DNA from: Candidatus Calescibacterium sp.
GTDB taxonomy: Bacteria > Calescibacteriota > Calescibacteriia > Calescibacteriales > Calescibacteriaceae
Direction: 5' to 3'
Length of the DNA stretch: 64,000 nt
Assembly: GCA_025060505.1 (NCBI GenBank)
Contig: JANXBU010000003.1
Span: 124,001-188,000, forward strand
Part shown: positions 43,627-47,854 of the stretch, piece after piece
Layout of the letters: each line of letters starts with the position of its first letter
Position numbering within the stretch: the first letter of the stretch is position 1
Translations under genes and position numbers: made by a program
Notes under the pieces: model-generated
What the model saw: the letters and a program-made list of their open reading frames with translations, nothing else
Databases searched by the model: none
What the model was told of the DNA's origin: nothing

Positions 43627-45012
43627 ATGAGGATTTTTAAACAAACTTTGATTTTACTTGTTATTTTTGCCGGAGTTTTAGGATTTTATTTCTTGTATCT
43701 CAAACCTTCGGAAGAAAAGAAGAAGAAAGAGCAGGAAGCAGAAAAAAAACTGATAAACATTGAACAAGAAAAAATTCAGGAGATATGGATAACAAAGCAG
43801 AACGGAGAAAAAATTGGCTTTCGTAGAGAAGGTAAATCGCGCTGGAATATCATCTTCCCAATCGTTGCAGATGCAGATAGATTTGCTGTCAACCCAATAG
43901 CTTCAAGGTTCTCTTCTGTTGATATAGATAGGCTTATAGATGATACTGGTAATTTCTCTCCATACGGACTTGACAATCCACGGTTCATTGTGGAAATAAA
44001 AACTCAGGATCAAGTATTTACGCTCAACATAGGAAATAAGTCGCAGGTAGGTTACAATGTTTATGCATACCTTCAGGGAGACAAAAAAGTTTATCTTGTG
44101 AGCGCAGCTCTTGAGTCGGTAATAGATAAAACTCTATATGACTTCAGAGAAAAAAGACCAATGGACTTTATAGTATCTGATGTGAAAAAATTTACAGTCG
44201 TTCAGGGTGATAAAGAATTCCTGTTTGAAAAAGAGGAAGAAGGTTCAGAATGGAAGATACTATTTCCTGGCATGACAACATTTGTTGAAGGAGATGAATC
44301 CAAGATAAGAGATTTGCTATATAAGATAAGTGGTATTAAGGTCAAGGAATTCGTTTCAGATCTTACAGAACCCGTAAACAGTTATGGTCTTGATTCTCCG
44401 GATACAAAAGTAAGTGTATTTACAAAGGGAGAAGATGGGTATGATGAATTTTCTGTTATTTTGAAGTTCACCAAAGATTCGATTTATGGAAAGAGACCAG
44501 ATAAACCCAACATATTTTCTGTTGATGTGGATAGATCTTTGCAGGAACAGATTCTGGCGGAGAATTTCAGAAACAGACAAGTTATAAAATATTACGTTTG
44601 GCGTGTCAAAGAGATCTCAGTTGAAACTACACATGGATCTAGAATAATTCAGCGGGATCAAGTTGATACTGAAAAATGGTACCTTGTTGAAGGAAATACA
44701 AAGAAAACTCTTGAAACCTCAAAGGTTAAAGATGTATTGAGAAAACTTTCAGAGATGTCTGTTTTGAAGTTTGTTGGAGACAGTGTTGATGTATCTGAGT
44801 TTATAAAAGATCCGAAAGCGAGAATTAGAATAGATGTGGAAGGCAAGGCTGAACCATATTATCTGATTGTTGGAGATAGAAGGTCGGTGGATGGAGTTTC
44901 TGGAATATTGGCAGGCCTTATGGATAAAAAATCCGTATACATTTTTCCAGACCAATTAACATCAATCATAAACGAGATACAAAATCTACAACCAGTTCAG
45001 CAGCAACAATAG
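43627..45012 (+). CDS. DUF4340 domain protein
   Basis: 461 residues. An N-terminal transmembrane helix (about 6-24) and a charged segment are followed by repeated DUF4340 units: WITKQNGEKIGFRREGKSRW, NFSPYGLDNPRFIVEI, PVNSYGLDSPDTKVSV. The YGLD-x-P element occurs twice. It probably lies on the outer face of the inner membrane and acts with the GldG-like protein 9 bp upstream. The exact function of this pair outside gliding bacteria is not established. Confidence 0.82.
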   Translation: MRIFKQTLILLVIFAGVLGFYFLYLKPSEEKKKKEQEAEKKLINIEQEKIQEIWITKQNGEKIGFRREGKSRWNIIFPIVADADRFAVNPIASRFSSVDIDRLIDDTGNFSPYGLDNPRFIVEIKTQDQVFTLNIGNKSQVGYNVYAYLQGDKKVYLVSAALESVIDKTLYDFREKRPMDFIVSDVKKFTVVQGDKEFLFEKEEEGSEWKILFPGMTTFVEGDESKIRDLLYKISGIKVKEFVSDLTEPVNSYGLDSPDTKVSVFTKGEDGYDEFSVILKFTKDSIYGKRPDKPNIFSVDVDRSLQEQILAENFRNRQVIKYYVWRVKEISVETTHGSRIIQRDQVDTEKWYLVEGNTKKTLETSKVKDVLRKLSEMSVLKFVGDSVDVSEFIKDPKARIRIDVEGKAEPYYLIVGDRRSVDGVSGILAGLMDKKSVYIFPDQLTSIINEIQNLQPVQQQQ

Positions 45013-45022
45013 GGACTGAACA

Positions 45023-45058
45023 GACGAAAAATTGTCTCAGGACGAAAAATTATCTTGA
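45023..45058. repeat. 18-bp tandem duplication after the DUF4340 gene
   Basis: GACGAAAAATTGTCTCAG is followed directly by GACGAAAAATTATCTTGA, 11 bp after the DUF4340 stop. Confidence 0.6.
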
Positions 45059-45112
45059 CAGCTATAAATGAAGATGATGATAGAGAAAATTTTGGTGGTT
45101 TGTATGAACTAA

Positions 45113-46081
45113 TTATATAAATAGTTCTGAGACGCTTCTTCCTTGATATATTCTCAAGATTGCTTCTCCAAGCAGTTCCGCGATAGATACAACCTTTATT
45201 TTACCGTTGGATCTTTTATCTTTTCCATCAATAGGTATTGTATCGGTGACAACAAGCTCTTCAAGGCAAGATGAAGCAATTTTTTCCGGGGCGTCTTTGG
45301 AGAGAACCGGATGAGTACATACAGCGGATGCGCTTTTGGCTCCTTTATCAATAAGTGCTTGTGCTGCTTTTATCATTGTTCCGCCCGTGTCAACTATATC
45401 ATCCACTATTATTGCATGCTTACCTTTTACTTCACCTATTACGAAAACTACTTCTGATTCATTCGGAGCTGGTCTCCTTTTATCTATGATGGCGAAACCA
45501 CAGGAGAGTCGTTTTGCGTATCCGCGAGCTCTGGCTGCTCCTCCTGTGTCTGGTGAAACAATCACGATGTCATCACCTTCTCCCCATCTTTTTTTTATAT
45601 AGTCTATGTGTATGGGCATAGCATATAGGTTATCGACTGGAACATCAAAAAAACCCTGAATTTGTCCAGCGTGAAGGTCGACTGTAACGACTCTATCAAC
45701 TCCTGCCACTTGAAGAAGGTTTGCTACAAGCTTGGCGCTTATTGGGGCTCGTGGTTCAACTTTTCTATCTTGACGAGCGTATCCATAGTAAGGAATTATT
45801 GCTGTCACTTCTTTCGCAGAGGCTCTTCTGAGTGCGTCCATCATTATAAGAAGTTCCATAAGATTGTCATTGGTAGGTGGACATGTTGGTTGTACAATAA
45901 AGACCTCTGCACCTCTTACATTTTCTTTTATTTCTATCCAAATTTCTCCGTCGGAAAATCTCTTTATCTCAGCTTTTCCAAGAGGTATTTCTACATACTT
46001 TGATATTTTGAAAGCAAGTTCATAGTTTGCTGAACCCGAAAATATTTTTATCTCTCCTTTCTGTCCGGGGGAATTTAACAT
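45113..46081 (-). CDS. prs: Ribose-phosphate pyrophosphokinase
   Basis: Makes PRPP from ribose-5-phosphate and ATP. 322 residues from ATG 46081. The start of the fold is [37 protein letters not shown] and the ATP flexible-loop region [17 protein letters not shown] are present, as is the PRPP signature [16 protein letters not shown] reading frame extended upstream would run through tRNA-Gln and is rejected. The ATG is only 9 nt from the tRNA 3' end and no separate promoter fits in between, so prs appears to be read from the tRNA promoter. Confidence 0.96.
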
Positions 46082-46090
46082 CAGGAAGGT

Positions 46091-46162
46091 TTGGGGTGGG
46101 AGGACTCGAACCTCCACGCCGGGATCCAAAGTCCCGTGTCCTGCCAATTAGACGACACCCCA
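46091..46162 (-). tRNA. tRNA-Gln (anticodon UUG)
   Basis: A complete cloverleaf can be drawn. Acceptor TGGGGTG/CACCCCA has the weak U1-A72 pair typical of glutamine tRNAs, with discriminator A at 46091. The anticodon stem is CGGGA/TCCCG around loop CTTTGGA (anticodon TTG), and the T arm is GAGG-TTCGAGT-CCTC. CCA is not encoded. It sits directly upstream of prs. Confidence 0.95.
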
Positions 46163-46169
46163 GACCTAC

Positions 46170-46175
46170 TGTATA
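46170..46175 (-). promoter_or_regulatory. -10 box of the tRNA-Gln/prs unit
   Basis: TATACA on the minus strand lies 7 nt before the first base of the tRNA. Transcription would start at or next to the mature tRNA 5' end, leaving almost no 5' leader. Confidence 0.45.
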
Positions 46176-46261
46176 TTAAAACGAAAAATAAAAAAATATG
46201 ATAAATTCAGAATGCTTAATATGGTATAAGAACTTTTATTTTTATTTCTTTCTTTATGCTT

Positions 46262-47266
46262 TTATTTCTTTACTTCATCAAATAATTTCTTCCTTTTGAC
46301 CCATTCTGGAATTATTTTTATATCAGCTCTCTCAACTGCAAGGGAGTAGGAAGGTACATTTTTGTTTATAGATGAACCTGCTCCTATATAGCTATAACTA
46401 TCCAATTTGATCGGAGCTATAAGCATACTTCCTGAACCAACGAAAACATTGTCTCCTATTATTGTTTTGTTTTTGTTTTTACCATCAAAATTGCAGGTTA
46501 CAGTTCCAGCTCCTATATTTACATTTCTACCCAAAACAGAATCTCCTATATATGAGAAATGTTGAACTTTTGTATCTTCTCCTATCTCGGAGTTCTTTAT
46601 TTCTGCAAAATTGCCTATGCGTGCTCCTTTTTTGACCTTAACCTGTGGTCTCATTCTTGCAAAAGGACCAACCTTAACATCCGTTTCTATGTATGCCCCT
46701 TCAATATAGCAATACGGAAAGATCTCAACTCCATCTTCTATTTCACAGTTTGATATGGTGTTACCCTGATGTATTTTTACATCTTTGCCAATCTTTGATG
46801 AGATTATATATGTGTATGGATACAAAACAGTATCTTGGCCAATTTCTGAATCAAGTGATACATACGTTTCCTCGGGTGAATACAGAAAAGCTTTTTTACT
46901 GATCTCTTTATTTTTTATATCCTGAAGTATTTTGATTGCTTTTGAAAATTTATCTCCATCCGATATTCTGAATACGGTGCTTGGAACGGATGAAAATGTA
47001 TATTTTTGATCACCTTGTCTATTGATATAAAATACATTATCAAAATTTATTGACTTATTCTTTGAGTCAATGTATTCTGTGATCATTTGGACAAGATTTT
47101 GGTCTGGAGGTACAAATGAATCCTGAAACACGATAAATTCTATATCTTCAATGTTTCTTCTTATATTTTCCTTTACTCTGCTCAGAGTTATTTTGAATAT
47201 GTCAATTGTATCGAGTCCAATAATTTTTGGTATTTTTTTGCCTTGTTCTTTTAATATGATTTTCAT
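46262..47266 (-). CDS. GlmU-like left-handed beta-helix acetyltransferase without a normal uridylyltransferase domain
   Basis: 334 residues. The C-terminal 190 are hexapeptide repeats closely matching the GlmU acetyltransferase domain: FARMRPQVKVKKGARIGNF, catalytic-His region KVQHFSYIGDSVLGRNVNIG, and AGTVTCNFDGKNKNKTIIGD. It should acetylate glucosamine-1-phosphate. The N-terminal 140 residues lack the LAAGxGTRM signature and key residues of the pyrophosphorylase domain, and look like a degenerate or different domain. A separate UDP-GlcNAc pyrophosphorylase would be needed. TAAAAT 7 nt before the ATG supports an own start in addition to read-through from pgsA. Confidence 0.82.
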   Translation of the reverse strand: MKIILKEQGKKIPKIIGLDTIDIFKITLSRVKENIRRNIEDIEFIVFQDSFVPPDQNLVQMITEYIDSKNKSINFDNVFYINRQGDQKYTFSSVPSTVFRISDGDKFSKAIKILQDIKNKEISKKAFLYSPEETYVSLDSEIGQDTVLYPYTYIISSKIGKDVKIHQGNTISNCEIEDGVEIFPYCYIEGAYIETDVKVGPFARMRPQVKVKKGARIGNFAEIKNSEIGEDTKVQHFSYIGDSVLGRNVNIGAGTVTCNFDGKNKNKTIIGDNVFVGSGSMLIAPIKLDSYSYIGAGSSINKNVPSYSLAVERADIKIIPEWVKRKKLFDEVKK

Positions 47267-47273
47267 AAATTTT

Positions 47274-47279
47274 ATTTTA
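47274..47279 (-). promoter_or_regulatory. -10 box, leaderless promoter of the GlmU-like gene
   Basis: TAAAAT on the minus strand, 7 nt before ATG 47266, inside the 18-bp gap after pgsA. Confidence 0.5.
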
Positions 47280-47284
47280 CCATT

Positions 47285-47854
47285 TTAAGTGGAGGTATTT
47301 TTTAAAGAGGTATTTTTTATTTTCTGTATTTCTTTTATATATGTGGTTATATACTGAGCTCCGGAAACAACAGCAAGAGCGAAGCACAGAACAAAAGATA
47401 CATCTCCAACGAATTGAGCAGATATTCCGAAATATTCGTCTTTTAGTATGTATGCTGATACTGCTACGTTTCCTGCCAGAGTTTTTAGTTTTGCTGAAAT
47501 AGAGCTTTTTATTTGGAAACCGTGTCTTTCTGCAGATGCTCTGAGGCCAAGAACCATAATTTCTCTAAGAACAATTATTGAGGAGGCTAAATTTGGAATA
47601 TCTTGAACTCCGATAAGTACTATCAATGTACATATGAAAAGTGCTTTATCTGCAACAGGATCGAAAATATCTCCGTCTGTTTCTTTTGGTTTATCTTTCC
47701 TGAGTCTTGATATAAAACCATCTAGAACATCGGTCAGGGCAAAGGTTATGTATAAGAAAAATGTGTATATTCTTGGTATTTCAAGTATTAGTAAAGCGGG
47801 TATGAGTAATGCTCCGAGTATTCTTGAAAAGGTTATATAGTTTGCTATTTTCAT
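47285..47854 (-). CDS. pgsA: CDP-alcohol phosphatidyltransferase (PgsA-like)
   Basis: 189-residue integral membrane enzyme. MKIANYITFSRILGALLIP is the typical PgsA start. The CDP-alcohol motif reads DVLDGFISRLRKDKPKETDG followed by DIFDPVADK (DxxDG, then G-x3-D-x3-D). It likely joins glycerol-3-phosphate to CDP-diacylglycerol. An in-frame start further upstream would overlap the enoyl-CoA hydratase gene by over 100 bp and is rejected; ATG 47854 lies 7 bp after that gene's stop. The C-terminus KNTSLKNTST is a visible product of a 15-bp tandem duplication. A second paralog is at 59.3 kb. Confidence 0.88.
   Translation of the reverse strand: MKIANYITFSRILGALLIPALLILEIPRIYTFFLYITFALTDVLDGFISRLRKDKPKETDGDIFDPVADKALFICTLIVLIGVQDIPNLASSIIVLREIMVLGLRASAERHGFQIKSSISAKLKTLAGNVAVSAYILKDEYFGISAQFVGDVSFVLCFALAVVSGAQYITTYIKEIQKIKNTSLKNTST
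47292..47321. repeat. 15-bp tandem duplication in the 3' end of pgsA
   Basis: GAGGTATTTTTTAAA and GAGGTATTTTTTATT are adjacent. Read on the minus strand they encode the repeated KNTS of the PgsA C-terminus. Confidence 0.75.

Follow-up and report, generated by a model that had tools for sequence, protein, structure and literature searches.

Results and Discussion

Organization of the tRNA-Gln/prs locus

In the window, i.e., the whole 64,000-nucleotide stretch of DNA that was analysed, a tRNA-Gln gene lies directly ahead of prs, the gene for ribose-phosphate pyrophosphokinase (Table 1). The gene preceding both, which encodes a GlmU-like protein, stops 100 nt short of the tRNA. The 3' end of the tRNA reads CACCCCA-A, with the discriminator A at 46091. 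A genome-wide tRNA search found tRNA-Gln(UUG) as a single copy in the window's genome, the other tRNA-Gln being CUG. An earlier note on this DNA had placed the prs ATG 9 nt past the discriminator and had held that no promoter fits between the two. ARAGORN, the Rfam match and the sequence itself confirm this spacing, and inspection of the spacer revealed no Shine-Dalgarno (SD) motif, no promoter-like hexamer and no CCA. A sigma70-like −10 element is also missing from the tRNA end.

Table 1. Features around the tRNA-Gln/prs junction, in window coordinates.
Feature	Position	Strand	Basis
GlmU-like protein, hexapeptide type, 334 aa, upstream of tRNA-Gln	46262-47266	minus	Pfam
−10-like hexamer TAATAT before tRNA-Gln	46173-46178	minus	Sequence; −16 from tRNA; predicted promoter element
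tRNA-Gln, anticodon UUG, CCA not encoded	46091-46162	minus	ARAGORN; Rfam RF00005, 61.3 bits
Spacer ACCTTCCTG, 9 nt, from tRNA discriminator to prs start	46082-46090	minus	Sequence
prs, ribose-phosphate pyrophosphokinase, 322 aa, ATG at 46081-46079	45113-46081	minus	Pfam PF13793 (6e-54), PF14572, PF00156

Upstream of the tRNA, the picture differs in part from what had been proposed. A −10-like hexamer is indeed present there, but TATACA, claimed as the −10 box with its end 7 nt short of the tRNA, shares bases with a better match, TAATAT. The latter predicts a transcription start near 46166 and a tRNA-Gln leader of about 4 nt, and it sits where TANNNT is enriched before the tRNA genes of the window's genome (−17 to −14 relative to the tRNA 5' ends). 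The −35 region is weak. A scan of positions 44900-47300 around the junction found no terminator-like sites, and a search for a special RNA fold at the junction gave nothing better than shuffled sequences (z = 0.14).

The GlmU-like protein itself is somewhat unusual. Above the cut-off it matches solely hexapeptide-repeat/left-handed beta-helix families in Pfam, and its N-terminal part, where GlmU has its nucleotidyltransferase domain, gave no significant Pfam match.

Conservation of the junction

We compared the locus in the window's genome (G000) with four relatives from the same family (G001-G004, of which G002 and G003 represent two other genera). Their prs orthologues share 80-82% identity, and in 4/4 the gene is directly preceded by tRNA-Gln. 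The start codons ATG, ATG, GTG and TTG follow the discriminator at 9, 9, 10 and 10 nt, respectively, and the spacers, CAAAATCAA in two genomes, CCACTGATTT and CTTAAAAAGT, are all devoid of an SD. In G004 an in-frame TGA stands just before the GTG, which identifies this GTG, the sole usual start codon in the interval, as the start. The codons after the start vary synonymously around 10 conserved residues, which indicates that the prs N-terminus is real coding sequence.

Two other start sites for prs were considered and rejected. Initiation inside the tRNA, at the TTG or GTG of a 344-aa ORF, is incompatible with the in-frame TGA that closes that frame in G004. A non-standard internal start (ATA or ATT behind AAAGGAG) conflicts with the preservation of the upstream codons as protein, with synonymous changes, and again with the TGA right before the GTG in G004.

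Beyond the family, tRNA-Gln(UUG) was found ahead of prs in the same orientation at about 25 loci, with gaps ranging from about 11 nt to more than 300 nt. In these lineages the gap is usually longer and an SD is often present before the prs start. Judged from the sequences compared, the tRNA-Gln/prs linkage is old, being found in many distant bacteria, and its tight SD-free form belongs to the window's family.

Fusion of tRNA and protein genes across the genomes

A tRNA was scored as fused if the first start codon of a same-strand ORF of at least 80 aa lay 3-14 nt past the discriminator. With ORF starts picked mechanically as the first start codon, so that some may be wrong, 25 of the 46 tRNA genes in the window's genome qualified, and in G002 and G003 an ORF start within 14 nt was found for 25/45 and 25/44 tRNAs (draft genomes, 82-86% complete). 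The same procedure gave 2/30, 2/30, 5/22 and 0/13 in four control genomes outside the family. The difference between the three genera (75/135) and the four controls (9/95) is highly significant (Fisher p = 1e-13). The five close starts came from a compact control genome; several of the control matches resemble chance ORFs and one has AGGGG ahead of its start. With a slight adjustment for double starts, the distance from tRNA to start codon was 9-10 nt in 44/77 cases and 8-12 nt in 62/77, and the spacers of the fused pairs are poor in G (5-7%). Across the genome, tRNA genes adjoin coding genes, which is one feature of tRNA punctuation of the mitochondrial type.

Sixteen tRNA-gene pairs are common to all three genera, and about 10 more occur in two. 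According to Pfam, the shared pairs include Val-UAC with a PfkB kinase, Asp-GUC with hslV, Ser-CGA with dnaX, Pro-GGG with trxA, Cys-GCA with a release factor of the prfA type, Lys-UUU with an SPFH protein and Gln-UUG with prs; mreB and gapA are also among the genes fused to tRNAs in the window's genome. The spacer sequences of the shared pairs have diverged but remained SD-free, and the start codons switch among ATG, GTG and TTG.

These pairs bear on the proposal in the earlier note that PRPP synthesis is specifically coupled to the output of tRNA-Gln. The pairing is old, as tRNA-Gln precedes prs in many bacteria far from this family, and this would fit such control. However, the same kind of junction links about 25 different tRNAs to unrelated genes, with no functional logic shared by the pairs, and in other lineages the tRNA-prs gap reaches hundreds of nucleotides and prs often has an SD. 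Dedicated control can hence be set aside as very improbable. Since hslV, dnaX, mreB, trxA, gapA, prfA and others are fused likewise, prs appears to be one case of a general arrangement.

Promoter layout and translation signals

The fused tRNAs of the window's genome are spaced asymmetrically. On the upstream side, the nearest same-strand gene ends at least 62 nt away or the neighbor is divergent, and on the downstream side the protein gene starts within 3-14 nt. A small number of the fused tRNAs in G002 and G003 lie shortly behind the end of an ORF on the same strand. The upstream space or divergent gene, together with the −10-like enrichment before tRNA genes, suggests that the tRNA is the first cistron of its transcript.

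Translation signals of the usual kind are rare in this lineage. The 3' end of the 16S rRNA carries a normal anti-SD. With a test covering positions −18 to −5, no SD was detected in any of the fused genes (0/25 in each of three genomes, i.e., absent in 75/75). Of the ATG-first genes, only 13-20% carry an SD-like motif in the three family genomes, compared to 40-74% in controls. In addition, a −10-like TANNNT lies 12-15 nt before the start codon in excess of expectation in the window's genome (31 against 11 in a shifted interval), with a weaker excess in G003 and G002. The low SD share and the excess of −10-like motifs near start codons indicate that SD-free starts are common in the lineage, and the window's genome probably makes many leaderless mRNAs.

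This raises the question whether prs is transcribed from a promoter of its own that overlaps the 3' portion of the tRNA gene and yields a primary leaderless mRNA, with the tRNA as a mere neighbor. The many genes with TANNNT 12-15 nt ahead of the start codon make primary transcripts of the leaderless type likely in the lineage, which speaks in favor of such a promoter. At prs, however, the acceptor stem of the tRNA (CACCCCAA) occupies the −10 position, and TANNNT is missing there. The same applies to nearly all fused genes: the motif occurs there in 0/25, 2/25 and 0/25 cases, i.e., it is missing from 25/25, 23/25 and 25/25 (73/75 together), as opposed to its presence in 40 of 95 well-spaced genes of the window's genome. 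A promoter inside the tRNA was rejected on this basis. An own promoter would moreover leave the tight spacing to the tRNA unexplained, and we consider it improbable, if less so than dedicated control.

An ordinary compact operon, for example glmU-tRNA-prs, would account for short gaps as in any operon, with prs translated from uncut or randomly cut RNA. Gaps of this size are not rare in the window's genome, where 25 of 80 sampled codirectional coding pairs are at most 16 nt apart, and the lack of a terminator-like site around the junction is in line with read-through. Yet such an operon does not predict the asymmetric spacing in this genome or the TANNNT just upstream of the tRNAs. The spacers also lack an SD, and a tRNA folded 9 nt ahead of the start codon would presumably keep ribosomes from loading. 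By the same reasoning, translation may depend on processing. We rate the operon as unlikely, while giving it somewhat more weight than an own promoter.

Candidate processing enzymes

RNase P RNA is present in 5/5 family genomes, which rules against an absence of RNase P as considered for leaderless tRNAs of the kind found in Nanoarchaeum. RNase E/G was also found in all five, with three matches exceeding the curated cut-off and two falling slightly short of it. For RNase Z, no model match above the cut-off was obtained in the five family genomes, though many of their tRNA genes lack CCA. The best matches are weak (36-50 bits, where the cut-off is 293) and the protein resembles a class-II cAMP phosphodiesterase, so RNase Z was discarded as the 3' enzyme.

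C occupies position 74 in 130/135 tRNA genes of G000, G002 and G003, although no more than 56/135 encode the full CCA. All five tRNA genes with another base at this position are fused tRNAs of the window's genome. Propionibacterium (Cutibacterium) acnes is described as having no obvious RNase Z, abundant leaderless mRNAs and tRNA cleavage between the two Cs of CCA (PMC3848588). This description makes a cut after C74 worth considering here as well. It would not be the sole rule, since the window's tRNA-Gln lacks C74.

Proposed expression of prs from a tRNA-headed transcript

The explanation that we prefer, with a probability of roughly 0.7, is that tRNA-Gln and prs form a dicistronic unit headed by the tRNA, in which a single RNA is cut at the tRNA 3' end and prs is translated without an SD. 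RNA polymerase would start a few bases before tRNA-Gln and continue into prs, and the short 5' leader of the tRNA would be trimmed by RNase P. Endonucleolytic cleavage at the 3' end of the tRNA would then free a prs mRNA with a leader of at most 9 nt. Because RNase Z was not found in the five family genomes, this cut would probably be made by RNase E/G or by another enzyme. The mRNA would be translated in a leaderless or short-leader manner, which is seemingly widespread in the lineage. The lack of room for a separate promoter or a usual ribosome site before the protein gene makes it probable that cutting out the tRNA is what creates the mRNA. For tRNA-Gln/prs, we infer co-transcription, the cleavage site and its enzyme, and the mode of translation from the gene layout. 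The same arrangement would serve about 25 of the 46 tRNA genes in the window's genome and appears conserved across the family. Two further suggestions of the earlier note, that tRNA-Gln heads the transcript with a short 5' leader and that 3' processing would release prs, agree with both the local anatomy and the comparison with relatives.

A wider reading is that punctuation by tRNAs operates throughout the family. More than half of the tRNA genes would then provide protein genes, often housekeeping ones, with a 5' leader that can be removed, and tRNA maturation would set mRNA 5' ends without RNase Z, perhaps by cutting after C74. SD-free initiation on short-leader mRNAs with a 5'-monophosphate would link tRNA maturation to gene expression. 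We put this forward tentatively, at a little short of even odds.

Relation to known systems

In mitochondrial tRNA punctuation, RNase P and RNase Z cut a common precursor of tRNA and mRNA at the ends of the tRNAs. The present system is similar in that tRNAs abut coding sequences genome-wide and cuts at their ends would free mRNAs with no or very short leaders. It differs in being located on a bacterial chromosome of about 2.3 Mb, in many separate units whose processing is predicted. Furthermore, each tRNA apparently has its own promoter and is the first cistron, spacers of 6-16 nt are kept, and RNase Z was not found.

Bacteria also have mixed tRNA-mRNA operons, such as tRNA-tufB in E. coli, but these are few per genome and their coding genes have normal leaders and SD motifs. 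The E. coli secG-leuU operon, cited as such in PMC3985628, is another. In these operons, tRNA and mRNA share a transcript, an arrangement with which the anatomy described here is compatible, and cuts of the RNase P and RNase E type set the two apart. In contrast, more than half of the tRNA genes are involved in the window's family, with SD-free spacing of 9-10 nt.

Bacterial leaderless mRNAs lack an SD, and their 5' ends are usually transcription starts (PMC3160421, PMC4633059, PMC3848588). The putative processed mRNAs resemble them in the absence of an SD, in a start codon at or near the 5' end that may be AUG, GUG or UUG, and in belonging to a lineage rich in leaderless-type promoters. The difference is that the 5' end would come from tRNA processing, with a leader of several nucleotides retained. 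The similarity to P. acnes lies in RNase Z, not found here, in the probable abundance of leaderless mRNAs, and in the prevalence of C74 where the full CCA is often not encoded, which would fit a cut after C74. The available parts of that report make no mention of tRNA genes joined to protein genes (PMC3848588). A search of open-access papers found no report of bacterial tRNA punctuation.

If the proposal holds, about 25 mRNAs of one bacterium, among them the transcripts of prs, dnaX, hslV, prfA, mreB and trxA, would owe their 5' ends to tRNA maturation, a kind of punctuation known from mitochondria. Translation capacity would be tied to housekeeping gene expression via RNA processing, and the system would offer a natural test of ribosome start on processed, short-leader, SD-free mRNAs. 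It would also raise the question which nuclease replaces RNase Z.

Start codon assignment and the hslV locus

The spacing suggests a rule for annotation, namely to place the start codon about nine bases past the tRNA. An independent check on start choice is provided by hslV. The catalytic threonine of HslV must directly follow the initiator, and in 3/3 genomes a TTG at +12 is followed right away by Thr-Thr, which fixes the hslV start at +12. On the minus strand of contig C49 of the window's genome, the RNase P RNA gene (100047-100506) lies about 58 nt upstream of tRNA-Asp (99915-99988), which in turn stands 12 nt before hslV, so that the row runs from a processing RNA through its substrate to a protease gene.
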